Of a stretch of 64,000 nucleotides of DNA, positions 6,670 through 33,378 are shown piece after piece; the first letter of the stretch is position 1, and every line of letters begins with the position of its first letter. Position numbers and translations under genes: made by a program. Location of the stretch: positions 20,043 through 84,042 of the forward strand of contig PMSQ01000197.1 of the NCBI GenBank assembly GCA_003168355.1, written 5' to 3'. The notes beneath the pieces are model-generated. The model ran no database searches and was not told where the DNA came from. It saw only the letters and a program-made list of their open reading frames with translations. Source of the stretch: Acidobacteriaceae bacterium. GTDB lineage: Bacteria > Acidobacteriota > Terriglobia > Terriglobales > Acidobacteriaceae.

Positions 6670-7726
6670 TTTCGGGGGAGGCGGTACCGATCTACCCGCA
6701 TATTACGAGCAGTTCGGAGGTGCGGTCCTCAGTGTCTCGATCAACAAGTATTTTTATACGATTCTGGGTGCGCGAAACGATGGTCGTATCCAGGTGATCT
6801 CCTCGGATTTACGAGTTTTCGAAACTTGGAACGACATTGCCAACATGCCGCTGAAGGGCAGCGAATTGGAGATCCCGCTGGCTGTGCTTAAGGAGGTAGG
6901 ATGTAAGATTTCTGTGGATCTCTTCTTGGCGTCGGAAATACCTCCAGGGACTGGGCTAGGGTCTTCGGCGAGCGTATGTGTGAATATTCTGAAGACGCTC
7001 ACTAACTATATTCAGAAACCACTCTCGAAGTATGATCTGGCAGACCGGGCTTTTAGCATCGCGCGTCACACGCTGGGCAGACACGTTGGCAAGCAAGACG
7101 AATACGCGGCCGCTTTTGGGGGCCTGAATTACATATCATTCCATAGGGACGGCAGCACGCAAGTGGAGCCGCTTGACCTGGAAGGAGGCATCTTACGAGA
7201 GCTTCACTCCAAGCTGATGCTCATTTTCACGGGCTCCGCCCACCATTCCTGGACCATTCTGCGCGAACAAGAAAACTCCACTCGAGAACGAACCGGTTCG
7301 ACCGTCGACGCTTTGCACGAGGTCAAGGCGCTGGGAGCTGAGATGCGAAGGAGTTTGGAGCGCGGAGAACTCAGACGGTTTGCCGAGCTCCTTCACGAGG
7401 GGTGGCTGGCAAAACAGCGTATATCGAGTAAGATTTCAAACGCTCGGATCGATTTGCTGTATGCCATGGCTCGTGAACATGGGGCGATTGGCGGCAAGAT
7501 CACCGGAGCGGGGGGTGGAGGATTCCTGCTTCTGTACTGCGAATTGGATCGCCAGCAAGCGGTGCGGCGGGCATTGCTGACGGAAGGGGTTCAGGAAATG
7601 GCCTTTGATTTTGATATGCAGGGAGCACAGGTCATCGTAAACGATCCATTTATTGATGCCGATCAGAAAGGTGGTTCACGCTGGATATTTGTTCCAACTT
7701 CCGCAGCCGCCGCTTCAAGCAAATAA
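6638..7726 (+). CDS. hddA: GHMP-family D-glycero-D-manno-heptose 7-phosphate kinase (HddA-like)
   Basis: 362 residues from a GTG start, with AAAAGGAG nine bases upstream. The N-terminus SPVRISFGGGGTDLPAYY is the sugar-binding signature of HddA and related kinases. Motif 2, PPGTGLGSSASV (near residue 110), binds ATP, and GGKITGAGGGGFLLLY is motif 3. It would phosphorylate heptose 7-phosphate at C1 to the alpha-1,7-bisphosphate. Its place between the GmhA-like and nucleotidyltransferase genes fits the GDP-D-alpha-D-heptose branch. A related GHMP sugar kinase cannot be fully excluded. It overlaps the upstream gene, so expression is probably coupled. Confidence 0.87.
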   Translation: MLIVRSPVRISFGGGGTDLPAYYEQFGGAVLSVSINKYFYTILGARNDGRIQVISSDLRVFETWNDIANMPLKGSELEIPLAVLKEVGCKISVDLFLASEIPPGTGLGSSASVCVNILKTLTNYIQKPLSKYDLADRAFSIARHTLGRHVGKQDEYAAAFGGLNYISFHRDGSTQVEPLDLEGGILRELHSKLMLIFTGSAHHSWTILREQENSTRERTGSTVDALHEVKALGAEMRRSLERGELRRFAELLHEGWLAKQRISSKISNARIDLLYAMAREHGAIGGKITGAGGGGFLLLYCELDRQQAVRRALLTEGVQEMAFDFDMQGAQVIVNDPFIDADQKGGSRWIFVPTSAAAASSK

Positions 7727-7760
7727 CCGCGTTTGACCGGTCCGAAGGGCAGGATTTGTT

Positions 7761-8453
7761 TTGAAGGCCTTTCTGCTGGCAGCTGGACGTGGCACCCGGT
7801 TGCGGCCGTTGACAGACCAGACGCCTAAGTGTCTTCTGCCTGTGCGCGGCAAACCCATGATCCAGATCTGGCTCGAAAAGTGTCGCCTATTTGGCATCGA
7901 TGAAGTGCTCGTCAATGTTCATACCCATGCCGACAAGGTGCGCGACTTTCTCGCAAACAATAGCAACGGTCTCAATGTTCAAGTCGTTGAAGAGCGGGAA
8001 CTGCTGGGCAGCGCCGGAACGTTGCTTGCGAACCGTGAGTGGGTGAAGGGGGAGCTTTTTTTCTGGGTTTTCTACGCAGACGTCCTGCACCAAGCAGACC
8101 TCTCGGCGATGCTCCGGATACAAGAGTCGGAGGAGCCAGCCGCAACGCTTGGAGTTTACCGGGTTCCGGATCCTACGCGCTGCGGAATTGTTGAAGTGGC
8201 GGAAGATGGCACTATCCGCGAGTTCGTCGAGAAGCCGGAACGGCCCCGGAGCAACCTTGCCTTTTCCGGGCTCATGATTGCCACCCCAGCGCTGCTTGAT
8301 GCTATTCCACGCAAGCTTCCGGCGGACATTGGGTTTGATGTTCTACCGCAATTGGCGGGCCGCATGATGGCCTACACCATTTCTGATTACCTGATCGATA
8401 TTGGCACGATGGAGAACTACTATCAGGCCCAGCGTAGCTGGCAAGATGTTTGA
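7761..8453 (+). CDS. hddC: Heptose-1-phosphate guanylyltransferase-like nucleotidyltransferase (HddC-like)
   Basis: 230 residues from a TTG start. The N-terminal AAGRGTRLRPLT is the NTP-binding signature, followed by PKCLLPVRGKPMI, FYADVL with the metal-binding Asp, and the C-terminal DYLIDIGTMENYYQA typical of sugar-1-phosphate nucleotidyltransferases. In this context it would activate D-glycero-alpha-D-manno-heptose 1-phosphate to GDP-heptose. A mannose-1-phosphate guanylyltransferase-like activity is the main alternative. It is the last gene of the operon. A frameshifted relative lies near 22.3-22.8 kb. Confidence 0.85.
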   Translation: MKAFLLAAGRGTRLRPLTDQTPKCLLPVRGKPMIQIWLEKCRLFGIDEVLVNVHTHADKVRDFLANNSNGLNVQVVEERELLGSAGTLLANREWVKGELFFWVFYADVLHQADLSAMLRIQESEEPAATLGVYRVPDPTRCGIVEVAEDGTIREFVEKPERPRSNLAFSGLMIATPALLDAIPRKLPADIGFDVLPQLAGRMMAYTISDYLIDIGTMENYYQAQRSWQDV

Positions 8454-22274: not shown

Positions 22275-22794
22275 GTGCCCGAGTTCGTGCGGCAGCAGAC
22301 CGAGGCAATTCCGGTGCGCATAGTGGAAAGCCGTCGTTGCTGGGCAGCGCAGGAACTTTGCGGGCGAACCGCAATTGGCTTGGGTCGGATGATTGTTTCG
22401 GGATATTCTATACTTATGTTCTCAACTGCTACCGACCTTGGAGCCATGTTGCGCATGCATCTTGACCGCAGGCCGGCAGCGATTCTCGGCGGCTACCAAG
22501 TCCCGTACCCCTGCTCCGGCATTGTCAGCACCAATGGCGACGGAGTAATCGAGCAGTTCGTTGAAACGCCCACAGAGCCGGCAGGCAAATTGGGCGTTTT
22601 CGGGATTGATGATAGGCACGGCGGAAATGCTGGATGTTTATCCCGGAGAATCCCCCCAACATTGGGTTCCGTTCTGCCGCGGCTCACCGGCCGCATGGTC
22701 GCCTTTCCCATTACACGATTACCTCATCGACATCGGCACGATGGAGAACTATCAAAAGGCGCAGGCAACCTGGCCCGGATTTCCGCAGGCCTGA
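22275..22794 (+). pseudogene. Frameshifted HddC-like nucleotidyltransferase relic
   Basis: Pieces of the protein encoded at 7761 can be followed through three frames. EFVRQQTEAIPVRIVES is in one; LLGSAGTLRANRNWL and GIFYTYVL in a second; AMLRMHLDRRPAAILGGYQVP plus GVIEQFVETP back in the first; then FSGLMIGTAEMLDVYPGES and DYLIDIGTMENYQKAQ in the third. At least three frameshifts and a missing N-terminal NTP-binding region make it non-functional. It ends two bases before the Shine-Dalgarno region of the HAD phosphatase gene, suggesting an old operon. Confidence 0.82.
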
Positions 22795-22804
22795 GGTGAA
22801 TCGC

Positions 22805-23458
22805 ATGTTGGGTGGTGTGGTGTTCGATATGGACGGAGTGATCATCGACAGCCATCCGGCGCATCGCTTGGCCTGGAAGGGTTTCCTGGAAAGCGTGGGC
22901 TGCGAGACCCGCGATGAAGAGCTGGATTTCATTCTCGATGGCTGCAAGCGCGCTGAAATATTGAAGCACTTCCTGGGCGAGCTGACTCCCGAGCAAATTG
23001 CCGACTATGGAAACCGCAAGGACGAGCTCCTGCAAAAGCACGGTGACGCGGTCCAGCCCATGCCTGGTATCGTCGAATTCCTGGGGCATCTGTCGGCGGC
23101 AGGTATTCCTAGCGCCGTTGCAACATCAGCCACTCGGCGCCGCGCCTTTGGAACCCTCGAGGAATTGGGGCTCACCTGTTATTTCCGTGCGATTGTGACG
23201 GGCGATGACGTAACTGTCGGAAAGCCTGATCCCGCCATCTATCAGCTCGCCGCCCAGCGCATGCAGGAATCTCCGGAGCGCCTGGTCGCGGTAGAGGATG
23301 CAGCCTCTGGCGTAAAGTCCGCGAGGGCCGCGGGAATGCGGTGCCTCGGGGTCGCGCCTTCACGGCGGGCCTCCCTTCTCCGGACTGCGGGTGCAGACCC
23401 CGTCATTCCGGATTTTCGGGAGTTCTCGTTCGGCCAACTCGAAGAATATTTCCGTTGA
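22805..23458 (+). CDS. HAD-superfamily phosphatase/phosphomutase (beta-PGM-like)
   Basis: 217 residues from ATG 22805, with GAGGTGA five bases upstream. Motif I FDMDGVIIDSHPAH sits at the very N-terminus, a helical C1 cap covers about residues 18-85, motif II Thr/Ser lies in VATSATRRR, motif III Lys in VGKPDPAIY and motif IV in VAVEDAASGV. This is the beta-phosphoglucomutase-like HAD-IA group: sugar phosphate dephosphorylation or mutase chemistry. The preceding heptose-nucleotidyltransferase relic suggests a sugar-activation operon. It is not of the GmhB (HAD-IIIA) type, so a role in heptose bisphosphate hydrolysis is only speculation. Confidence 0.85.
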   Translation: MLGGVVFDMDGVIIDSHPAHRLAWKGFLESVGCETRDEELDFILDGCKRAEILKHFLGELTPEQIADYGNRKDELLQKHGDAVQPMPGIVEFLGHLSAAGIPSAVATSATRRRAFGTLEELGLTCYFRAIVTGDDVTVGKPDPAIYQLAAQRMQESPERLVAVEDAASGVKSARAAGMRCLGVAPSRRASLLRTAGADPVIPDFREFSFGQLEEYFR

Positions 23459-23879: not shown

Positions 23880-26432
23880 TCAAGATCCTGTGTAGAGCTG
23901 AAATGGCGCCCAATAAAAAGGTTTCCGGAAGGCAGCGCCGGAGTGAAGCAGGGTGAGTTTGGCGGTGCGCAGGGCTGCGTCGGGCGTCTCTCCTTTTTTC
24001 AACTCCGCATAGAGTTCGTCCATCAGCTGCGGAGTTGTGTCGTCACTCACATCCCACAGAGCTCCAATCACATTGTGAGCGCCGGCGCGAACAAAAGCCC
24101 AGGAAAGCCCCACCAGTCCTTCTCCAGAGTAGGCACGCGCGCCCGCACTGCGGCAAGTGGAAACCGTGACCAGTTCAGCCCGCAACGGATGTTGAATGAT
24201 ATCGCGGGCATAGAGCTTGTAAGAATCGCCTTCGGTGGCATTCGCCCTGGAAAGCACAATGGCCGAGTCGAGCGGACTCAGCCGGCTCGCCGTTCCATGC
24301 GCGACAAAATGAATATAAGCGAAGCGCTCCGGCTGGCTGCTCAGATAGGTCGAGGGAGTCGCCTGATCGCGCGAGAACACGTGCTCATGACTGGCCGGAA
24401 AGTGCTTTTCGATGCTCTCCATCTCGATAGCGGCCTTCGGCAGTTGAGGAAAGTCCTCGCTTGGCGTAATGGAATTGCCGAAGAGCAGCAGGTCACCCGT
24501 GTCTTTGCGGCGCGCTGCGTGAAAGGCTTGCAACATTCGGAGCGAACTCGCGCTCGATAGCGTTACGTCCTCGATCCAGTAATGCGGCTGAGGCGCAGGC
24601 GCCAACAGGGTTTCAAAATTCAGGCTGTTCAGGCTGCCGTCAGGAATGATGAAAACTTTTCCGTTTTTTGATAAAAGATCGGCCGCCGGTTCCACCAGGA
24701 TGCGATAGAGCGCGGCGCCATCGTCGTTCGCGGTTTGCGAAGATTCCCGTTGGTCGATGATGGCCTTTCGATAGCGCTCTACTCTCGTCTTGATCTCCGC
24801 CGCCGGAGGCAATCGAAACAGACTAATTTTCTGCGGCGTGATCGCCCACAAATAAGATTGCTCTTCGCCCAGCCAATAGAACAAAACTGTGCCGCCGGCC
24901 TGGCGAGCAATCTGCCGAGCATTCACCTCGTACGGAGCAAACGAGGTTCCCTTAGGCAACAATCCCAGCCCTTCCGACAAAGTTCGCGCTCGGCTGAAGT
25001 CCGCTACCTGTAAGGCCTCGGCGGTCTTGCCCCGAGCCACGAGAAAGTGAATGTAGTCGTCATAGATGCGCGCTGCATTGCTGAGAAACGGCAGCCGGGA
25101 ATCTTCGTGCTGCAGTTCGGAGCGCGCAGTTTCAAAAGTGGTAAGCGCAGTGCGATACTCGCGGTTGGCGGAATCGAACTGGCTCTCATCTTCATACAGC
25201 CGAGCCAGCGACCGCTCCGCCTCCCACTTCAAGAAGACCGGACTATCCTGCGATTGCGCAACCTCGCGGAACGCATTCTCCGCGGTAGCAGGATCATGCA
25301 GCCGCGCCGCAACGCGCCCCTCCACCAGCAGCGGATACACCTGGTCCCGTCCATTCTTATCCTCTCGCGCCTTGGCAAGTGCCTCGTCCGCGTAACGCTT
25401 AGCGTCGTCCAGTCTGCTGGTTCGCTCGGAGACAAAAGCCAGGGCAGTGAGTGCGTCGACGATGTCTTCCCGGCTGTTAATTTGCTCGGCAAGCTTCCGC
25501 GACTCCAGAAAAGACCCCTCGGACAGTTTGAAATCACCCGCATCCATGTAAGCGTATCCCAAGGCGGCGAGCCAACCCGCCTCGCTGGCTACATCCCCCA
25601 GCTTTCCCGCCTGGTCCTTAGCCTCAATAAACATTCCCTCAGCTTTTTCGGTATCGCCAAGCTTGTAGTAGGCCCAGGCCATATCGCCGAGCGCGGTTTG
25701 TGCGATGTCAGCATATCCGTGCGCCGTGGAAATTTGGCGGGCGGCATTGGCCCAATCGAGCGCCTCATCAAAGTGCGTCTGCTTGTTCGCGGACCAACTT
25801 AGGTTCAGCAGGATGTTGGCTTCGAGGAATCGATCACTGATCGTGCGCCCGGAGGCCAAAGCGCGCTCGAGGAGACTTTGCGCTTCGGGGTAATGGCCGC
25901 GTCTCATTTCAAATACGCCTTGCGTGCTCGCAAGGTCCATGCAGGAAGGGTAAGAGGAATCGATGCACAGTTGTTCCGCGGCGGCCAGTTCGCGCTCGGC
26001 CTCAGGAAACCTACGCAGGGCTGCGTAGGCGACAGTTTCGAGACGATGCCTTTGGACGGCTAGATCGTCGGATGAAGGAGGTGCCGGCTCAGCGGTCAAG
26101 AGGCCTAGCGCCCGGTCGCTGCTGCCCTGCCAATTCAGTATTCTCGCCCTGAGAACCGTGAACTGCCATGCCCAGTTCGGACTGACGCGATGGAACTCCC
26201 TATAGCCTCTATCCGCTTCGTCTGCAGCCGCAGTTATGTCACCGTGCCAGAAGGACTGCTTCGCGTGATCGAACGCAACCTGTGGATTCCGTTGAGCGCA
26301 GCCAAACAGCGCCGCGATCACGAACATCGACGCGGCCACCATGCCCGCCCTTGCTGGAGCACGCTCCCGCCATCCAGGTTTTGAGTCGGCTCGGCCGACG
26401 ATCCGCGCAAGAACCATTGCTGTTCCCGTCAC
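23880..26432 (-). CDS. TPR-CHAT domain lipoprotein (caspase-like protease)
   Basis: Up to 850 residues. The N-terminus has a hydrophobic stretch and a lipobox ending ALFGC (Cys45 from this GTG start), so it is probably an anchored lipoprotein. Residues 55-470 contain many degenerate TPR units (e.g. AWAYYKLGDTEKAEGMF, ALGYAYMDAGDFKLSEGSF). The C-terminal CHAT domain (about 560-850) has the catalytic His712 in YIHFVAHGTAS and Cys760 in VTVSTCRSAGARAYSGEGL, then AGAHNVIGALWDV. CHAT proteins are peptidases cleaving partner proteins on a signal. It is last in a minus-strand run behind an ECF sigma/anti-sigma pair. Target unknown. Confidence 0.88.
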   Translation of the reverse strand: MTGTAMVLARIVGRADSKPGWRERAPARAGMVAASMFVIAALFGCAQRNPQVAFDHAKQSFWHGDITAAADEADRGYREFHRVSPNWAWQFTVLRARILNWQGSSDRALGLLTAEPAPPSSDDLAVQRHRLETVAYAALRRFPEAERELAAAEQLCIDSSYPSCMDLASTQGVFEMRRGHYPEAQSLLERALASGRTISDRFLEANILLNLSWSANKQTHFDEALDWANAARQISTAHGYADIAQTALGDMAWAYYKLGDTEKAEGMFIEAKDQAGKLGDVASEAGWLAALGYAYMDAGDFKLSEGSFLESRKLAEQINSREDIVDALTALAFVSERTSRLDDAKRYADEALAKAREDKNGRDQVYPLLVEGRVAARLHDPATAENAFREVAQSQDSPVFLKWEAERSLARLYEDESQFDSANREYRTALTTFETARSELQHEDSRLPFLSNAARIYDDYIHFLVARGKTAEALQVADFSRARTLSEGLGLLPKGTSFAPYEVNARQIARQAGGTVLFYWLGEEQSYLWAITPQKISLFRLPPAAEIKTRVERYRKAIIDQRESSQTANDDGAALYRILVEPAADLLSKNGKVFIIPDGSLNSLNFETLLAPAPQPHYWIEDVTLSSASSLRMLQAFHAARRKDTGDLLLFGNSITPSEDFPQLPKAAIEMESIEKHFPASHEHVFSRDQATPSTYLSSQPERFAYIHFVAHGTASRLSPLDSAIVLSRANATEGDSYKLYARDIIQHPLRAELVTVSTCRSAGARAYSGEGLVGLSWAFVRAGAHNVIGALWDVSDDTTPQLMDELYAELKKGETPDAALRTAKLTLLHSGAAFRKPFYWAPFQLYTGS

Positions 26433-26567
26433 AAGATTCTAACTTGAAAGGCAGACAGCCTTCACAGAATCCCGCGAGGGGAAGATCATGTTTCCCTGGT
26501 TTATTTCACTATTCCTACTCCTGAGTTCTACTCCTGCGGCGACTTGGAGTGAACTGGCAGGTGAGCT

Positions 26568-27467
26568 CTAGCCGCCGCCTTTGCCCTGACCGTTTGTCTC
26601 CGCCGTCGTGATGTTGGTCGTTCCTTCTCCGATACATCCCATCTTCACCCGGATCATGGTCAGGTGGAACCTGTATTTGTCGTAAATTCCCTTGTTCGGA
26701 TCGCCCAGCTCCCGCACCACCCTTAACTCGCCCAAAAATATCTTCCCAAAATGCGGCAAGTCGATCACGTGTCCGAACGAAAGCCCGGGAGCGCCCGCCA
26801 CGCGGTTGACCAATGAGCATTTCAGTGTTCCATTCCCGTTCAGCACAGGCTGGCCCCTGGGATACTCTTCGCTGGCCCAGTCTGGAAGCTCGGCTGCGGT
26901 GGCAATCCGGTCGTATTGCTGCGAAAGCCGGTCGAGGACATTGCCATTTTCAAAGTACGATTCGTCGTCCGCCGGTTTGGGACCAAGGATGTCGAGACAA
27001 CGGTCCACCTCAACCTTGTGTCCGGCAATCCGCAGATTGTCGAAGCGCGTGCCCAGAAACGTAACCGAAGGCACCTGCCCCGTTCCGTATGCCGGATGCA
27101 CAGTAGAGATTTGCGCCACCACGCGGTCGGCGGTCACCACGTCGAGCACGTTCAGCCCCTCGATTACGGACGTGGCCAGCGTGGAGAACCCAGCAATCTT
27201 CGAACTCGGATGTCCCGCCACCTGGGTGTATCCGCCCTCATAGGAAAGAATGCCATCCAGGTGCAAGGGATCGGCCTTCTTGTAGTGATAGTGCCCCTTG
27301 TCCTCGCAATGCCCTTTCTTGGACAGCTCCACATACGCTCGAGGCTTGATCACATCTTGCACCGGCTGCTGAATGTCTGCACTCAGAACATCGGCTTCCG
27401 CATAATATTCGTGAACTGCATCGGGGTCTGGCTCAACCATCGATAGGTCGTTCGGTAGTGCTGCCAT
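26568..27467 (-). CDS. Uncharacterised protein of the sigma/CHAT operon
   Basis: 299 residues from ATG 27467, with GGAGG six bases upstream; this rules out a longer start. Not confidently recognised. There is no signal peptide; the C-terminus is Gly/Lys-rich (NGQGKGGG). A central beta-rich part contains ATSVIEGLNVLDVVTADRVVAQIST and SVTFLGTRFDNLRIAG, which faintly recalls choice-of-anchor P proteins; an HxH-like KGHYHYKK segment is near residue 58. It starts 24 bases after the anti-sigma gene stop and precedes the CHAT gene, so it may be a partner or a CHAT substrate (inference). Confidence 0.7.
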   Translation of the reverse strand: MAALPNDLSMVEPDPDAVHEYYAEADVLSADIQQPVQDVIKPRAYVELSKKGHCEDKGHYHYKKADPLHLDGILSYEGGYTQVAGHPSSKIAGFSTLATSVIEGLNVLDVVTADRVVAQISTVHPAYGTGQVPSVTFLGTRFDNLRIAGHKVEVDRCLDILGPKPADDESYFENGNVLDRLSQQYDRIATAAELPDWASEEYPRGQPVLNGNGTLKCSLVNRVAGAPGLSFGHVIDLPHFGKIFLGELRVVRELGDPNKGIYDKYRFHLTMIRVKMGCIGEGTTNITTAETNGQGKGGG

Positions 27468-27490
27468 ACATTTCCTCCGTTCGGGTGAGT

Positions 27491-28156
27491 TCACTTCTGA
27501 TCTTGTAGCTCGATCGGATACCGGCCGAGATCCACACTTTCACCGCTGGTGGTGATGCCATACACCGCCAGCGTACTGGGCGCATGATCGCTTCCCGGAA
27601 CATAGAGCGAAAGCGCGTCGCTCCCTGCCGCCGGGATCGAGCGCGACCATTCTAGCCTTCCCTGCGCGCTATACAAGTCCAATTTGTAAGAAGAATAACG
27701 GCCGTTGGGCGGAACGTTCAAGGCCAGCCCGAAGGGTTGTCCCGCGCGGGCCGGAACCGCAATTGCCTCCATGCCTCTGGTACCGACGTTGACCACTGCC
27801 GATGCCAGAAACTGGGGACTTGTTGCCGCCTGTTGCAATCGAGAGTAGGCCTGATTTTGATACACGATGACGGCCAGCAACAGGGCAAGAACGGGCACCG
27901 CAATCGCAGGCCGCAGCCATGCGAACCATCCGGAACCCGCTGATACGGGAACGCGCACGCGCACCGCAGACGGGGTCGCCTTCTCAGCCAGGATCACCTT
28001 GCTCTGCTCGATCAACATAGCTGCCGCACGCAGATCCAGTGCGCAATCCTGGCAGTCGAAGAGGTGCTCCTCGAACTGGTCGCGCAGCCCGGGATCGAGT
28101 TCATCGAGCATGTATTTTTCCGTGGCTTTCTGCCGGACCGCCTCATCATGGTCCAT
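27491..28156 (-). CDS. zf-HC2 membrane anti-sigma factor
   Basis: 221 residues from ATG 28156, preceded by GAGGGGGAT. The N-terminal cytoplasmic part has the anti-sigma zinc motif His-x3-Cys-x2-Cys (EEHLFDCQDC, about residues 29-38). A single span lies near residues 80-100 (IAVPVLALLLAVIVY), and the external part is beta-rich (VPPNGRYSSYKLDLYSAQG). It should sequester the ECF factor encoded immediately upstream; the ATGA-overlapping upstream frame is kept only if a longer start is used. Release probably follows an envelope signal. The pairing is inferred from adjacency. Confidence 0.85.
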   Translation of the reverse strand: MDHDEAVRQKATEKYMLDELDPGLRDQFEEHLFDCQDCALDLRAAAMLIEQSKVILAEKATPSAVRVRVPVSAGSGWFAWLRPAIAVPVLALLLAVIVYQNQAYSRLQQAATSPQFLASAVVNVGTRGMEAIAVPARAGQPFGLALNVPPNGRYSSYKLDLYSAQGRLEWSRSIPAAGSDALSLYVPGSDHAPSTLAVYGITTSGESVDLGRYPIELQDQK

Positions 28157-28203
28157 TTGTCGATCCCCCTCAATAGAATAGTGTGCCGCGACTGCAAAGC
28201 GTT

Positions 28204-28818
28204 TCATGTTTTTACAGCGGCCACCACGCCCGGCGGACGGGCCGCCAGGTCCTTTAGATACAATGACTTAAAAGATCGCTTGGCGCGATGAAGCAGCACT
28301 CGAAGGTAGTCGCGGTCGACGCCAAAATCGCGGCAAACCTCATCCTTGTCCCGTTCCTCCAGAAAAATGGCCCGCAGCAATCGCCGGTCTCGTTCCGGCA
28401 TCTCCTCCAGAATCTCCCGGACCTTATCTTGCATTTGTTTGGCGGCGATGGCCCCAATGAAGTCGACTGTCCGATCCGGAAAGTCCTGATCCTCTTCGTC
28501 TTCGAGGAATGTGTCGCGTTGCGACGATCGGTAATACTCGAGCAACACATTGTTGCAGATCGAGTTTACGTAGGATCCAAGGCGCTCCGGCTGGCGAATC
28601 TTTCCCTCCGCGCGCAGCGCCGCAAACACACGGGCAAAGGTCTCCTGCCTCACATCCTCGATCGCTTGCGGCGATTGCACGCGGGAACGGAGTTTCAGTT
28701 GGACCAGTTCGCTGAAGTAAGCAACAAAATGCTCCTGCGTGCGAAAGTCTCCCGCACGAAGACGTTCTAGATAGGATTCGTCAAAGGACTGGAATTGCAA
28801 GGACTTCCCTCGGCCCAC
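28204..28818 (-). CDS. ECF-type RNA polymerase sigma factor
   Basis: 204 residues from a GTG at 28818; a TTG at 28800 has GAGGGA six bases upstream and may be the real start. Region 2 runs through RLRSRV-like helices with EDVRQETFARVFAAL and LGSYVNSICNNVLLEYYRS. Region 4 covers MPERDRRLLRAIFLEERDKDEVCRDFGVDRDYLRVLLHRAKRSF, the helix-turn-helix that reads -35 elements. It heads the operon with the anti-sigma factor, the unknown protein and the CHAT lipoprotein, and is likely to activate it. The region 2-4 linker is acidic (FLEDEEDQDFPDRT). Confidence 0.9.
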   Translation of the reverse strand: MGRGKSLQFQSFDESYLERLRAGDFRTQEHFVAYFSELVQLKLRSRVQSPQAIEDVRQETFARVFAALRAEGKIRQPERLGSYVNSICNNVLLEYYRSSQRDTFLEDEEDQDFPDRTVDFIGAIAAKQMQDKVREILEEMPERDRRLLRAIFLEERDKDEVCRDFGVDRDYLRVLLHRAKRSFKSLYLKDLAARPPGVVAAVKT

Positions 28819-28949
28819 AAGTGGCAGCTAGTTTAGCATTTCGCGCGAAAGGGATGGTGTTGGCCTTTGGCGGTGTAACGAAAGGGTTCCGGGCAGCACC
28901 ATTCCGTTTGGAAGTTGACCAAGAAACCACCGAAATTCGAGGAGATTCA

Positions 28950-29216
28950 TTGACTCAACACTCTCTGCCGCCACGCACCCGGGCTGTCGCTGGAATGCGG
29001 CAACCGGGGGCCTTCCAGCGCGCCCTGCTGCGGGCGTTCGAACTCCCCAAAGCCTACCGGGATGTGTTTGTTCTGACGGATATCCAAGGCTATACGCTGC
29101 CCGAAATTGCATCCATGCTGAGGATCAGCACCGGCACTGCGCGCGCCCGCCTGAAACGAGCACGCCGTGAGGTTGGTTCTGTTGAGGACCACGCCGACAT
29201 GGAGCGTACGCGATGA
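28950..29216 (+). CDS. Sigma-region-4-only mini protein
   Basis: 88 residues from a TTG with CGAGGAG at five bases. The body AFELPKAYRDVFVLTDIQGYTLPEIASMLRISTGTARARLKRARREVG is a clear sigma-70 region 4 helix-turn-helix, but there is no region 2. It is either a fragment of a former ECF gene whose 5' half is lost, or a stand-alone region-4 regulator. It is divergent from the ECF/CHAT operon. Its stop overlaps an ATG (29213) that opens a 71-codon frame with no recognisable family. Confidence 0.55.
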   Translation: MTQHSLPPRTRAVAGMRQPGAFQRALLRAFELPKAYRDVFVLTDIQGYTLPEIASMLRISTGTARARLKRARREVGSVEDHADMERTR

Positions 29217-29821
29217 CAGCTTATGCGAATTCCTCTCTGCGACCGCAATCCGCAATAATGTTGGACAGGATCGAATCCAGCCCAGAGAAAACCGATGTTC
29301 ACCGGCCTGTGAACGACCTTGGCAACCGGCGATGCCCACGGGCAGGCGAGAAGCTTCTTGAACTCATCGAACTGGCCAGACGATCGGCTCCAACCGTCCT
29401 CGTGATAGCGCTGAGAATCTTCCCCTAGCCGGTTCCACCATCGCGCAACATCCTTTACTGCTGGCTTGAAATGCAGATCCCATCCGATTGATCGTGAGTG
29501 CTGTGCAGCGGGCCGGAAATGGTTGAGGAAAGCGCAGGCCTGCAATGCTCTGAAGAAGTTCCCAAGCTGGTTCTTGCACTGAAAGCCCGAAGATCGCCGG
29601 AGCCATTTCCCCTTCGGCTCCGGCGATCTGAAGCACCCCAGCCTCCCCCCGGCTACTGTGGGTTCTTCCATGTCGGGATTATTGAATCTACTGCAGCCGC
29701 ATATTCCGCGACTTGTTCTGCTCAATGCCATATAGTGCAAAGACCCCGCAAATCATTTCAATGAAAAGATGGGGCTGCCCAAACTGTTAATAACTGGTAC
29801 CCCGCCCACACGATTTTCGGA
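29217..29821. other. 605-base region without a confident gene
   Basis: A 71-codon plus-strand frame starting with an ATGA overlap at 29213 and a 216-codon minus-strand frame cross this area. Neither has a ribosome binding site or family match that I trust. The area also contains a strong hairpin at 29591-29629. It may be a decayed locus between the sigma fragment and the tricorn gene. Confidence 0.45.
29591..29629. repeat. Perfect 14-base inverted repeat
   Basis: AGATCGCCGGAGCC (29591-29604) and its exact complement GGCTCCGGCGATCT (29616-29629) flank an 11-base loop. There is no T-run on either side, so an intrinsic terminator is unlikely; a repeat-element hairpin is the better guess. Confidence 0.85.
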
Positions 29822-32800
29822 TCATTGCGCCCCGCGCCGGTTGTAGCTTGGATATTCCGGCCTATGCGGTTCTGGCGCCGGGTGCTTCGCCAGTTCGTCC
29901 AGCGCCAGACTTACAGCTTTTTCAAGCTGCGCATCGTGACCCTCGCGGACCTCCTTCGGTTCCATATCCACTTCGTAATCTGGTTGCACGCCACGGTTCT
30001 CTACATCCCATTGCCCCTGCGGATTGAAGAATCCAAAACTGGGTGAGGTGACTCGGCCGCCGTCCATCAGCACCGGGATGCCTCCGATTCCAACCAGCCC
30101 GCCCCACGTGCGCTTGCCCACCAGCGGGCCCAGTTGCGCTTCGCGGAAGTACCACGGCATCGCATCGCCACCGGAGCCGGAGAATTCATTGGTGATCATC
30201 ACCTTTGGTCCCAGCACGGAGGCCTGCGGCGTGCGGTAGATCGCTCCATAGCGCGGAGCCCACCAGCTCATGAGCGTGCGCTGCATGGCATGGATGATGT
30301 AATCCGCCGCCTGACCTCCACTGTTGAAGCGCTCGTCAATCACAGCCCCTTGCTTGTCGAGCTGCGCGAAGTAGTAGCGGTTGAAATTCGTCAGACCGCC
30401 CATCGCCGTGTCCGGCAGATAAACGTAGGCCAGCTTTCCGGCACTCAGTTCCTGCACTTTGCGCCGGTTCGCCTCGATCCACGTCAGGTTGCGCAGGCTA
30501 AGATCATCGGCGATCGGCGTCACCGTAACCTCATGCGCATCTTTGCCGCTCGCGTCTGCGGCGATCTTCAGTACAACCTGGGTTCCGGCCGTGCCCTCCA
30601 GCAGCCGCTGAATGTCATCGGAGCCGCTCAGGTCCCGGCCTCCGACGGCAAGGATAAAATCCCCTTCTTTAACTTTCACTCCCGGCTCCGCCAGCGGCGC
30701 ATGCGCCTGTGGATTCCAGTGCTCACCCGTGTAAATGCGTTCAATGAGGTAACGCCCGTCCACGATCTCGTAGTCGGCCCCCAGCAGACCACCCCGCACG
30801 CGATTGGGATGGGGAATTGTTCCTCCGTTGCCCCGCAGATGGCCGATCGAGAAGTCGCCGAGCATCTCCTGAAAGAGATAATTCAGATCGCTGCGCGCCC
30901 CAACCTCAGCCAGATATGGTTTGTACTTCGCTTCCGCCGCAACCGTGTCCACGCCGTGATAATGCGGATCGTAGAAGAAGCTGCGCTCGATCTGCCATAT
31001 CTCGTGAAACATCTGCTGCCACTCGGCACGCGGATCCACGCGGACTTCCATCTTGGATAGCTCGAGTTTGCCTTCGCCGGGTTTGACGGGTGCGTCGGCG
31101 GGAACGATGACGAAGGTTGGCGCTGGGCCGTCGGCCGCCTGCGGGCCCTCTGGCTCGTCGCGCGCCATCTCCAGAAGCATCTTGTTCCCGTCGAATGAGA
31201 GATCAAATCCCGCAATGTGATCGGCCAGCTTCTCAGGTTTCCTTGTCTTCAGAACGAAGCGAGTCAGGGTCTGGCCGTGGTCTGCCTGGAATCTTCCTCC
31301 ACTCTCGAGCAGATAAAGAATGCCTTCCTTGCCGGCCGCCAGACCTGTATAACCGCTTGCAGGCAGGGGGAGCGCGACGGCGCGATCCTGCAGATGTTCG
31401 AGATCGATCTTCACCGGCTTTGGCTTCTCCGGCTTTTCTATTTTTTCGGGCTTGTCGGCGTCTTCGGATTTTTTCGCATCGTCTTTTTTCGCATCAGCGG
31501 ATTTGTCCTTATCCGCGTGCTCGTCGTCCGAGTCCTTCTTGTCCTTGTCCTTTGCGTCGGGCAGCTTCTCGTCTTCACCTTGGGGTGCAACGGGAGAAGC
31601 CGTATCCGCCGCCAGCGCCAGCCCGTACACGCTGCGGGTCACGTTAAAGGCGTCGCTGCTCATGTCCAGCCCGCTGGTGGACGTGCCGTAATTCGTGCTT
31701 TCCGTGAAGTAAAGATACTTCCCGTCGCGATCGAATCCAGGGAAGCGAACATCGCTCATGCCATCGGTGACCTGCATGCTCTTGCCCGACGCGACGGAGT
31801 GTACGAACAACGCATGGAATCGATTCGTCACCGTCTGCGTGTAGGCGAGCCACTTTGAGTCTGGTGACCAGGCAGCGTCGTAGTCTCCGTCGTCGTCAAC
31901 AGCCTTATCGATGACCGTGGCCTTGCCCGTCGCCATATCCAGCAGCCAGATTTCCGTCTTGTTGTCGTGGAAGGCGATGAGCTTTGAGTCCGGCGACCAG
32001 ACCGGCTTGAAATAATATGTCGCATCGTTGGCTAGCGGGAACTTCTTCACTTCGCCCGCGCCGCTCTGTTTGCTGATGTGCAGCGCATACTGGCCTGATT
32101 CATCGGAGAAATATGCGATGCTCTGTCCATCCGGGGACCACGCCGGCTCTCGCTCCATTACACCCGGGGTGCCGGTGATATCGCGTGTGGTGCTTTCCTT
32201 TTTCGCGGGCACAGTCAGGATGTCGCCGTGCGCCTCAAAGGCCGCCCGCAGGCCGGTGGGCGAGATGCTATAGCGCTGAATCTCGCGATCCGCCGGCGAA
32301 ATACGTTGGCGCACATCGGGCAAGTCGGCGTTTACCTCCACGCTGATCTGGCGTGCCTGGCCGCTCTGCGTATCGTACAAAAACAGCTCGCCAAACCGGT
32401 CGTAGACGATGCCGCCCGGTCCCGCACTTACCGAACGAATATCCGCGCCGTCATTCTTCACCACTTCTGTCATAGCCTTCGTCTCCGGGTCGAAACGAAA
32501 CAACGATATCGGCCCGTTGCGGTCGGAAAGAAAATACACCTGCTTGTCCACCCAGACAGGATTGAAATCGTTCGACCGCTCACGTGGGACCTTCACTACG
32601 TCCAGAGTTGCCATGTCGACTATCCACACCGAGCTTGCAAGGCCGCCGCGATAATTTCTCCACGCCACATACGAGGAATAATTGAAGGGCGACGCGCCGC
32701 CCACCGGCGAATACGCAAAGTACTTTCCGTCGGCGGAAAACTTGCCGGAGAAGGCCATCGGCAATGGCAGAGCCGTGGCCTGACCACCATTCAGCGAGAT

Positions 32801-33223
32801 CTTGAACAGTTTCGTGTATCGCGGGCTGCTGCTTTCGCGGTTGGAGCGGAAAATCACGTACTTTCCGTCAGGTGTCCACCCAACGGCAGCATCCGCTGCC
32901 GGATGATACGTGAGGCGCTTGGGAACTCCTCCGATGGATGGGACAACAAAGACATCCGTGTTTCCGTCGTATTCCCCCGTAAAGGCAATCATGTTGCCGT
33001 CAGGCGAAAAGACCGGGTCAGTCTCAATGCCAGTCCCCGTGGTCAGTCGAGAGGCGTGGCCGCCATTGCGGTCCACGGTCCACAAATCGCCGGCGTAAGA
33101 AAAGACAATCAAGCTGCCGTTGAATGCCGGCCGCTGCAGCAATGGGCGCGACGCCTGGGCGGTGACAGCAAGCGGGCAAAGTACGGCGAAAATAAAGGCA
33201 AGTACCTGTTGAATCACTTTCAT
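29822..33223 (-). CDS. Tricorn-type protease homologue with PDZ and S41 domains
   Basis: 1133 residues from ATG 33223, a position giving a clean signal peptide ending AVTAQA. Residues 30-530 are WD40-like beta-propeller blades (DLWTVDRNGGHASRLT, PVFSPDGNMIAFTGEYDG, AWSPDGQSIAYFSDESGQYAL and others). Residues 545-605 are a Lys/Asp/Glu low-complexity insert. A C1 domain with SFFYDPHYHGVD (the charge-relay His), a PDZ domain at about 830-910, and the S41 core with the nucleophile Ser in NEFSGSGGDAMPWYF (near 1014) follow. It probably degrades peptides in the periplasm, because it has a signal peptide, unlike archaeal tricorn. Confidence 0.93.
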   Translation of the reverse strand: MKVIQQVLAFIFAVLCPLAVTAQASRPLLQRPAFNGSLIVFSYAGDLWTVDRNGGHASRLTTGTGIETDPVFSPDGNMIAFTGEYDGNTDVFVVPSIGGVPKRLTYHPAADAAVGWTPDGKYVIFRSNRESSSPRYTKLFKISLNGGQATALPLPMAFSGKFSADGKYFAYSPVGGASPFNYSSYVAWRNYRGGLASSVWIVDMATLDVVKVPRERSNDFNPVWVDKQVYFLSDRNGPISLFRFDPETKAMTEVVKNDGADIRSVSAGPGGIVYDRFGELFLYDTQSGQARQISVEVNADLPDVRQRISPADREIQRYSISPTGLRAAFEAHGDILTVPAKKESTTRDITGTPGVMEREPAWSPDGQSIAYFSDESGQYALHISKQSGAGEVKKFPLANDATYYFKPVWSPDSKLIAFHDNKTEIWLLDMATGKATVIDKAVDDDGDYDAAWSPDSKWLAYTQTVTNRFHALFVHSVASGKSMQVTDGMSDVRFPGFDRDGKYLYFTESTNYGTSTSGLDMSSDAFNVTRSVYGLALAADTASPVAPQGEDEKLPDAKDKDKKDSDDEHADKDKSADAKKDDAKKSEDADKPEKIEKPEKPKPVKIDLEHLQDRAVALPLPASGYTGLAAGKEGILYLLESGGRFQADHGQTLTRFVLKTRKPEKLADHIAGFDLSFDGNKMLLEMARDEPEGPQAADGPAPTFVIVPADAPVKPGEGKLELSKMEVRVDPRAEWQQMFHEIWQIERSFFYDPHYHGVDTVAAEAKYKPYLAEVGARSDLNYLFQEMLGDFSIGHLRGNGGTIPHPNRVRGGLLGADYEIVDGRYLIERIYTGEHWNPQAHAPLAEPGVKVKEGDFILAVGGRDLSGSDDIQRLLEGTAGTQVVLKIAADASGKDAHEVTVTPIADDLSLRNLTWIEANRRKVQELSAGKLAYVYLPDTAMGGLTNFNRYYFAQLDKQGAVIDERFNSGGQAADYIIHAMQRTLMSWWAPRYGAIYRTPQASVLGPKVMITNEFSGSGGDAMPWYFREAQLGPLVGKRTWGGLVGIGGIPVLMDGGRVTSPSFGFFNPQGQWDVENRGVQPDYEVDMEPKEVREGHDAQLEKAVSLALDELAKHPAPEPHRPEYPSYNRRGAQ

Positions 33224-33378
33224 CTTCTCTGCTCCGTGAGAACGCATACAGTATCAACTCGGGCAAGGGCTCATATCATACGACCTCTGGCAAGGACTAA
33301 AAAAGGGAAATGCGAGGTAAACAGAAACCACGCTTCGTGACCGATCCCATACTCACAAGCCCTACACGCCGCGGGATC

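Follow-up and report, generated by a model that had tools for sequence, protein, structure and literature searches.

A conserved Acidobacteriota module of ECF sigma factor, membrane anti-sigma factor, choice-of-anchor P relative and TPR-CHAT protein, with a probable promoter of its own

The window, a stretch of 64,000 nucleotides from the genome of an Acidobacteriaceae bacterium, carries a four-gene operon on its minus strand at 23880-28818, and all four open reading frames given in the preliminary description were found in place. The ECF sigma factor gene (28204..28818, minus strand) matches TIGR02937 (1.3e-14; 54.2 bits against a cut-off of 42.9) and also Sigma70_r4_2 over its cut-off; its product comprises sigma regions 2 and 4 and no more, and it has orthologs in the module loci discussed below. 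Next to it lies the gene of a zf-HC2 single-pass membrane anti-sigma factor (Pfam zf-HC2, 2.5e-05, barely above the cut-off), whose open reading frame spans 27491-28207 on the minus strand and whose coding region is 27491..28156 after correction of its start. The third gene (26568..27467, minus strand) encodes a leaderless, beta-rich protein of 299 residues counted from its ATG, which we call MID, and the last (23880..26432, minus strand) a TPR-CHAT caspase-like protein with a lipoprotein signal, in which the CHAT domain (PF12770, 4.3e-53; 181.1 bits against a cut-off of 24) accompanies TPR repeats. No other CHAT gene was found in the 5.3-Mb assembly of the genome. Divergent from the operon stands a small open reading frame (28908..29216, plus strand) with sigma-70 region 4 only (Sigma70_r4_2, 1.7e-13); homologs with 52-54% identity occupy the same place in two other loci (L030 and L031), and it is a clade-specific neighbor of the operon.

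The preliminary description had proposed that the linkage be checked across Acidobacteriota, and there it held: the order ECF, anti-sigma, MID, CHAT is the same in 55/55 loci with all four genes, across families of the phylum, the distant ones represented by L118, L119 and L128 included. These loci come from a scan of named genomes that gave 60 loci, nearly all titled Acidobacteriota and partly overlapping a first neighbor set; 55 are complete, four are truncated at contig ends, and the last (L081) belongs to a MAG titled Gammaproteobacteria, perhaps misbinned, in which only MID and CHAT were seen. Because many of the loci are related, the counts are not counts of independent events. The first neighbor set kept the order in 10 of 12 cases, with one contig ending before CHAT and one locus differing. 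Two genomes (L025 and L124) have MID, CHAT and anti-sigma genes with no nearby ECF gene, and another locus (L194) shows the module order with a gene at 7490-8449, between anti-sigma and CHAT, that looks like a very divergent MID missed by the profile. A search with the MID sequence recovered it from 13 of 297 Acidobacteriota genomes and a profile search from 25 of 396, and identity to the window protein drops to 24-30% among the homologs.

The CHAT residues His712 (codon 24297-24299, minus strand) and Cys760 (codon 24153-24155, minus strand), which had been described as intact, are indeed both encoded in the window sequence, and the pair is kept in all 54 alignable sequences, the window's included; four further sequences are cut or broken in this region. 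By its domain score, His and Cys, the window protein is a CHAT peptidase, with proteolysis predicted. To our knowledge, neither a substrate nor a signal is known for most CHAT proteins of bacteria. The N terminus of the window protein, MVAASMFVIAALFGC, fits a lipoprotein signal with its lipobox cysteine at Cys45 (codon 26298-26300, minus strand). A strongly hydrophobic N-terminal segment is present in 57 of 58 CHAT proteins; a simple lipobox pattern occurs in 25, others show a late Cys on inspection, and one clade has no Cys and resembles an ordinary signal or anchor. Export is therefore predicted throughout and lipidation only in part. In a profile search of 199 genomes the subfamily scored at least 475 bits (plus one copy cut by a contig end), and the many other TPR-CHAT proteins of the phylum stayed below 300 bits.

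The 58 anti-sigma sequences share a zinc motif, one transmembrane helix and a beta ectodomain, and the His and Cys of the H-x3-C-x2-C motif are invariant in the aligned sequences. The AlphaFold2 model contains the same three parts, at a whole-model pTM of only 0.53, and places Arg127 and Gly128, which are conserved at 97 and 91% and are among the best-kept ectodomain positions, in a loop (residues 124-131) predicted to connect strands. Some caspase-fold enzymes, separase for example, cleave after Arg, and Arg127-Gly128 is for that reason a candidate cleavage site. The same Arg is also kept in related anti-sigma factors with no CHAT gene in the short stretch seen; we therefore dropped the idea of a CHAT-specific site and treat Arg127 as a candidate only. 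The single-pass topology, the ectodomain and the M50 site-2 type proteases present in the genome (M50 proteases being near universal) fit an anti-sigma factor of the RseA/RsiW kind. Translation probably starts at the ATG at 28154-28156 (MDHDEA...) rather than at 28207, as judged from the alignment, the Shine-Dalgarno sequence and the promoter spacing; the position 28207 falls on the edge of a sigma-type promoter that occupies the ECF/anti-sigma junction.

For MID, the size of 299 residues was confirmed, and the earlier statement that it is unrecognised holds only in part, as the NCBIfam model choice_anch_P matches 42 of 55 MID homologs; the window protein itself reaches 23.8 bits against a cut-off of 27, with several homologs above it. 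No signal peptide was found in any MID homolog. The AlphaFold2 model is beta-rich (pLDDT 91.4, pTM 0.90), with a helical stretch preceding the last strands, and the C terminus holds a conserved NGxxxP-like motif. Profile and sequence features make MID a relative of the choice-of-anchor P proteins that has neither leader nor anchor. A Foldseek comparison of the model with the PDB returned no match at E up to 0.001, the follow-up gave no Z of at least 5, and a sequence search of the PDB yielded nothing convincing. We accordingly set aside the idea that MID is a bacterial gasdermin or has another known fold, which does not imply a new one. The two commonest Cys residues occur together in 37 sequences, compared with ∼37.5 expected if independent; they do not co-vary and hence give no pointer to a disulfide and an oxidizing compartment. 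An apparent MID-CHAT fusion in one locus (L052) is an artefact, because the Ns of an assembly gap join the two frames.

A bipartite motif was first noticed upstream of 11 ECF genes and was then counted on much sequence outside this discovery set. In its first reading, TAGTG-N16-CGTTTCA, most sites would point against the operon, and we abandoned it; read as TGWAACG-N16-CACTA, the sites stand before genes and resemble the usual -35 elements of ECF promoters. The 769 kb of module loci hold 87 copies of the motif, compared with 0.18 expected by uniform chance, and 49 of the 60 loci have at least one. It depends sharply on spacing, with two sites at 15, one at 17 and none at the other spacings from 8 to 25, and there are none in the 437 kb of 40 other CHAT loci. 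One-mismatch matches in the window genome did not exceed a reversed-pattern control, and exact sites alone were counted: in whole genomes, 65 in 12 module bearers versus 1 in 12 non-bearers of the same family (rank test p 8e-6, two pairs of bearers being near-identical). A distant module bearer (G066) has no motif sites.

Twenty loci carry the motif at the ECF/anti-sigma junction, mostly 17-37 bases ahead of the anti-sigma factor's MxH start, and in module loci it also occurs upstream of the ECF gene and downstream of the CHAT gene. In the window, an exact match at the junction, TGAAACG-N16-CACTA (28179..28206, minus strand), lies 22 bases before the corrected anti-sigma start and is a probable sigma promoter. 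A divergent promoter-like sequence, TGTAACG-N16-CACCA (28874..28901, plus strand), has its last element one base off and precedes the region 4-only open reading frame, and the corresponding place in L030 and L031 holds an exact TGTAACG-N16-CACTA. Upstream of the ECF gene, TGAAATG-N16-CACTA (29733..29760, minus strand) differs by one mismatch, a stringency at which chance matches are common, and is weak alone. Together these data suggest that TGWAACG-N16-CACTA is the probable sigma promoter of the module, presumably read by the module's own ECF factor, and that, with sites in and around the module, the ECF/anti-sigma pair probably has an autoregulated promoter.

The window genome contains seven exact sites, one of them inside the module. 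Genes behind the sites were assigned by a simple rule based on the start and the Shine-Dalgarno sequence, and the predicted targets in this genome include a choice-of-anchor D protein bearing propeller-like repeats, a PQQ-like lipoprotein, a 159-residue membrane protein also found next to the module in L030 and L031, and two small leaderless proteins. Those in relatives include sortilin-like propellers, PEP-CTERM proteins, Pro-kumamolisin, A4 and papain-like peptidases, an eCIS-core protein and a leaderless family of ∼720 residues. The predicted targets are largely exported or surface-type proteins, and the module, which is carried by soil Acidobacteriota, probably controls its own expression together with a small set of cell-surface genes. 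An ECF switch with a membrane anti-sigma factor, its own promoter and surface-related targets is well supported by gene anatomy and conservation. The envelope-sensing switch suggested earlier is supported in part, through the conserved linkage and the surface-related genes under a module-specific promoter.

We also looked at 40 loci around other CHAT genes of the phylum (L175-L214), chosen by score and open reading frame length; one of them, L194, proved to be a module locus. In many, an ECF gene, a gene for a zf-HC2 protein with a transmembrane helix, or both are close by; on a raw count, this proximity is a pattern and not a test. Examples are L176 (ECF, zf-HC2-TM, CHAT) and L182 (ECF, zf-HC2-like protein, CHAT). 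One protein, encoded at 5413-8868 of L191, joins a zf-HC2 domain (Pfam 2.1e-08), a transmembrane helix and TPR-CHAT, and adjoins a sigma-70 region 4 gene; another, in L203, has the H-x3-C-x2-C pattern and a transmembrane helix before TPR-CHAT, with zf-HC2 not called by Pfam. Each of the 43 other CHATs examined retains the His and the Cys. The linkage of CHAT and ECF genes, known from Craspase and ECF54, may be common in Acidobacteriota.

We tentatively favor, as a real possibility that falls somewhat short of probable, a self-regulated Acidobacteriota module in which the exported CHAT protein cleaves the anti-sigma ectodomain and so starts the release of the sigma factor. We infer the cleavage, its site, the signal and the role of MID, and the sequence of events would be as follows. 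The zf-HC2 domain of the single-pass anti-sigma factor would hold the ECF factor at the inner membrane, while the TPR-CHAT protein would be exported and then anchored in the envelope. An envelope signal, probably sensed through the TPR part of CHAT, would cause CHAT to cleave the ectodomain, with the conserved Arg-Gly loop as the candidate site, and housekeeping proteases would complete the breakdown and free the ECF factor. This would then transcribe the anti-sigma-MID-CHAT unit from TGWAACG-N16-CACTA, as feedback, along with a small number of genes whose products are secreted proteins, lipoproteins or leaderless beta-rich proteins. MID, co-expressed, would stay in the cytoplasm or leave by a non-Sec route, as partner or cargo. 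CHAT as the release-starting protease is the best fit because of its predicted export, the ECF linkage, the fusion, the catalytic conservation and the Craspase precedent, and the anti-sigma ectodomain as its substrate fits both the topology and the L191 fusion.

CHAT could instead be the output, with ECF and anti-sigma factor sensing alone and the lipoprotein processing envelope or secreted proteins, possibly co-regulated ones. This role is conceivable since the CHAT gene itself is downstream of the sigma promoter, the junction site placing anti-sigma, MID and CHAT under sigma control, and many of the predicted targets are exported; we nevertheless consider it rather unlikely, as CHATs of other subfamilies also lie near ECF and zf-HC2 genes and one is fused through a transmembrane helix to zf-HC2, at the place where an ectodomain usually senses or triggers.

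It is improbable, in our estimate, that CHAT and MID form a working pair, with MID as substrate or activator and the ECF/anti-sigma pair merely setting the level. MID is present in every complete module, is divergent in sequence yet has a confident predicted fold and a conserved NGxxxP-like C terminus, and stays beside CHAT both in the two genomes without a nearby ECF gene and in L081; other predicted targets are leaderless too, so that non-Sec export is conceivable. However, the export predictions for the two proteins are opposite, and the two commonest MID cysteines do not co-vary. The sequences make MID less likely as a CHAT substrate, since of the two only CHAT bears an export signal. Two observations sit apart here: the strict position of MID next to CHAT is unexplained by anti-sigma cleavage, and the retention of MID, CHAT and anti-sigma without a nearby ECF gene in L025 and L124 speaks against it. 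Finally, a non-proteolytic CHAT that acts as sensor or scaffold on the anti-sigma ectodomain would suit the TPR repeats as binding modules, and the L191 fusion equally with a protease, but is very improbable in view of the His and Cys kept in 54/54 sequences and in all 43 other CHATs.

Cleavage of the anti-sigma ectodomain by CHAT can be extended to a bolder proposal, which we regard as unlikely in its full form: that a membrane-tethered CHAT on the outer side of the inner membrane would be the site-1 protease of the ECF pathway, a Craspase logic moved to the envelope, and that the regulon would include leaderless extracellular-type proteins, MID among them, leaving by an undescribed route. 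For one CHAT subfamily there is now a constant set of partners, a promoter that can be read, a probable position in a pathway and a handful of predicted target genes, and module carriers occur in the named strains Granulicella aggregans, Edaphobacter lichenicola and Paracidobacterium acidisoli, which makes the role of an exported caspase-like bacterial protein directly testable. With cultured carriers it can be asked whether a caspase-like enzyme outside the cytoplasm activates gene expression inside.

No description of the four-gene module was found in the literature searched, an absence that is not proof, and its elements can be set against several known systems, of which ECF54 and Craspase come nearest. 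In Craspase, a type III-E CRISPR system, the TPR-CHAT protein Csx29 cuts Csx30, the inhibitor of the ECF-like CASP-sigma (PMC10028731). Both systems combine a TPR-CHAT protein that keeps the CHAT His and Cys with an ECF-like sigma factor and its inhibitor, whereas in the module CHAT bears an export signal, a zf-HC2 membrane anti-sigma factor takes the part of the inhibitor, and a choice-of-anchor P-like protein is always present; the window CHAT fails to match the Csx29 model, with 11.9 bits against a cut-off of 300. ECF54 genes lie beside carboxypeptidase, subtilase and CHAT genes, with proteolytic control proposed, and were described without an anti-sigma factor (PMC8999054). The module shares with them the link of ECF to CHAT and differs, in a comparison made by description, in its adjacent zf-HC2 membrane anti-sigma factor and MID. 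With RseA/DegS and RsiW it has in common a single-pass anti-sigma factor with an ectodomain and an ECF promoter in its own operon, but the proposed first protease would be the operon-encoded CHAT in place of a DegS- or PrsW-like enzyme. MID has the core motif and profile of choice-of-anchor P proteins (NCBIfam NF040603), the window protein scoring just under the cut-off, and differs from them in the helical stretch before its last strands and in lacking a signal peptide and an anchor, whereas a true choice-of-anchor P protein from a genome of the same family (L145) has a signal peptide. What this analysis adds is the probable sigma promoter TGWAACG-N16-CACTA.

The window also carries, divergently from the ECF gene, a 102-aa ORF comprising sigma-70 region 4 only (window 28908-29216, plus strand; Sigma70_r4_2, 1.7e-13), with a promoter-like site just upstream. 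Counterparts with 52-54% identity occupy the identical position at two module loci in other genomes (L030 and L031), and this region 4-only protein could serve as a modulator of the ECF factor. The genes flanking the module in the window, a tricorn-like protease of family S41 that carries propeller and PDZ domains (window 29822-33247, minus strand) and a beta-phosphoglucomutase-like hydrolase of the HAD family (window 22634-23458, plus strand), gave no sign of module membership.

A variant of the module occurs at two loci, L025 and L124, where the gene order is MID-CHAT-anti-sigma and the ECF gene is absent from the vicinity; at a third, L081, MID and CHAT are present and both ECF and anti-sigma are absent. 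The last lies in a MAG titled Gammaproteobacteria, which is perhaps misbinned, or its genes transferred. Among loci around other CHAT genes, an anti-sigma-like zinc-finger part, a TM helix and TPR-CHAT are joined in a single protein at L191:5413-8868 and L203:4792-8229, both on the minus strand, and Pfam calls zf-HC2 in the former only.

Near the module and behind the same type of promoter, several Acidobacteriaceae encode a family of leaderless, beta-rich proteins of ∼700-730 aa (LLANPNYFGNL...), for which comparison with Pfam and NCBIfam returned zero matches. Members lie at L033:2507-4672 (plus), L039:2335-4440 (minus), L040, L042, L050, L056 and L316:348-2474 (plus). Exact promoter sites also precede other genes. 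In G233, the protein encoded ∼450 bases downstream of such a site (L298:1073-3085, minus strand) has a C14 caspase domain and probably a signal sequence; the distance makes the link between gene and site weak. In G257, a protein with an eCIS-core domain (PF13699; L289:172-1644, plus strand) is encoded 54 bases downstream of an exact match, which points to a possible link with extracellular injection systems.
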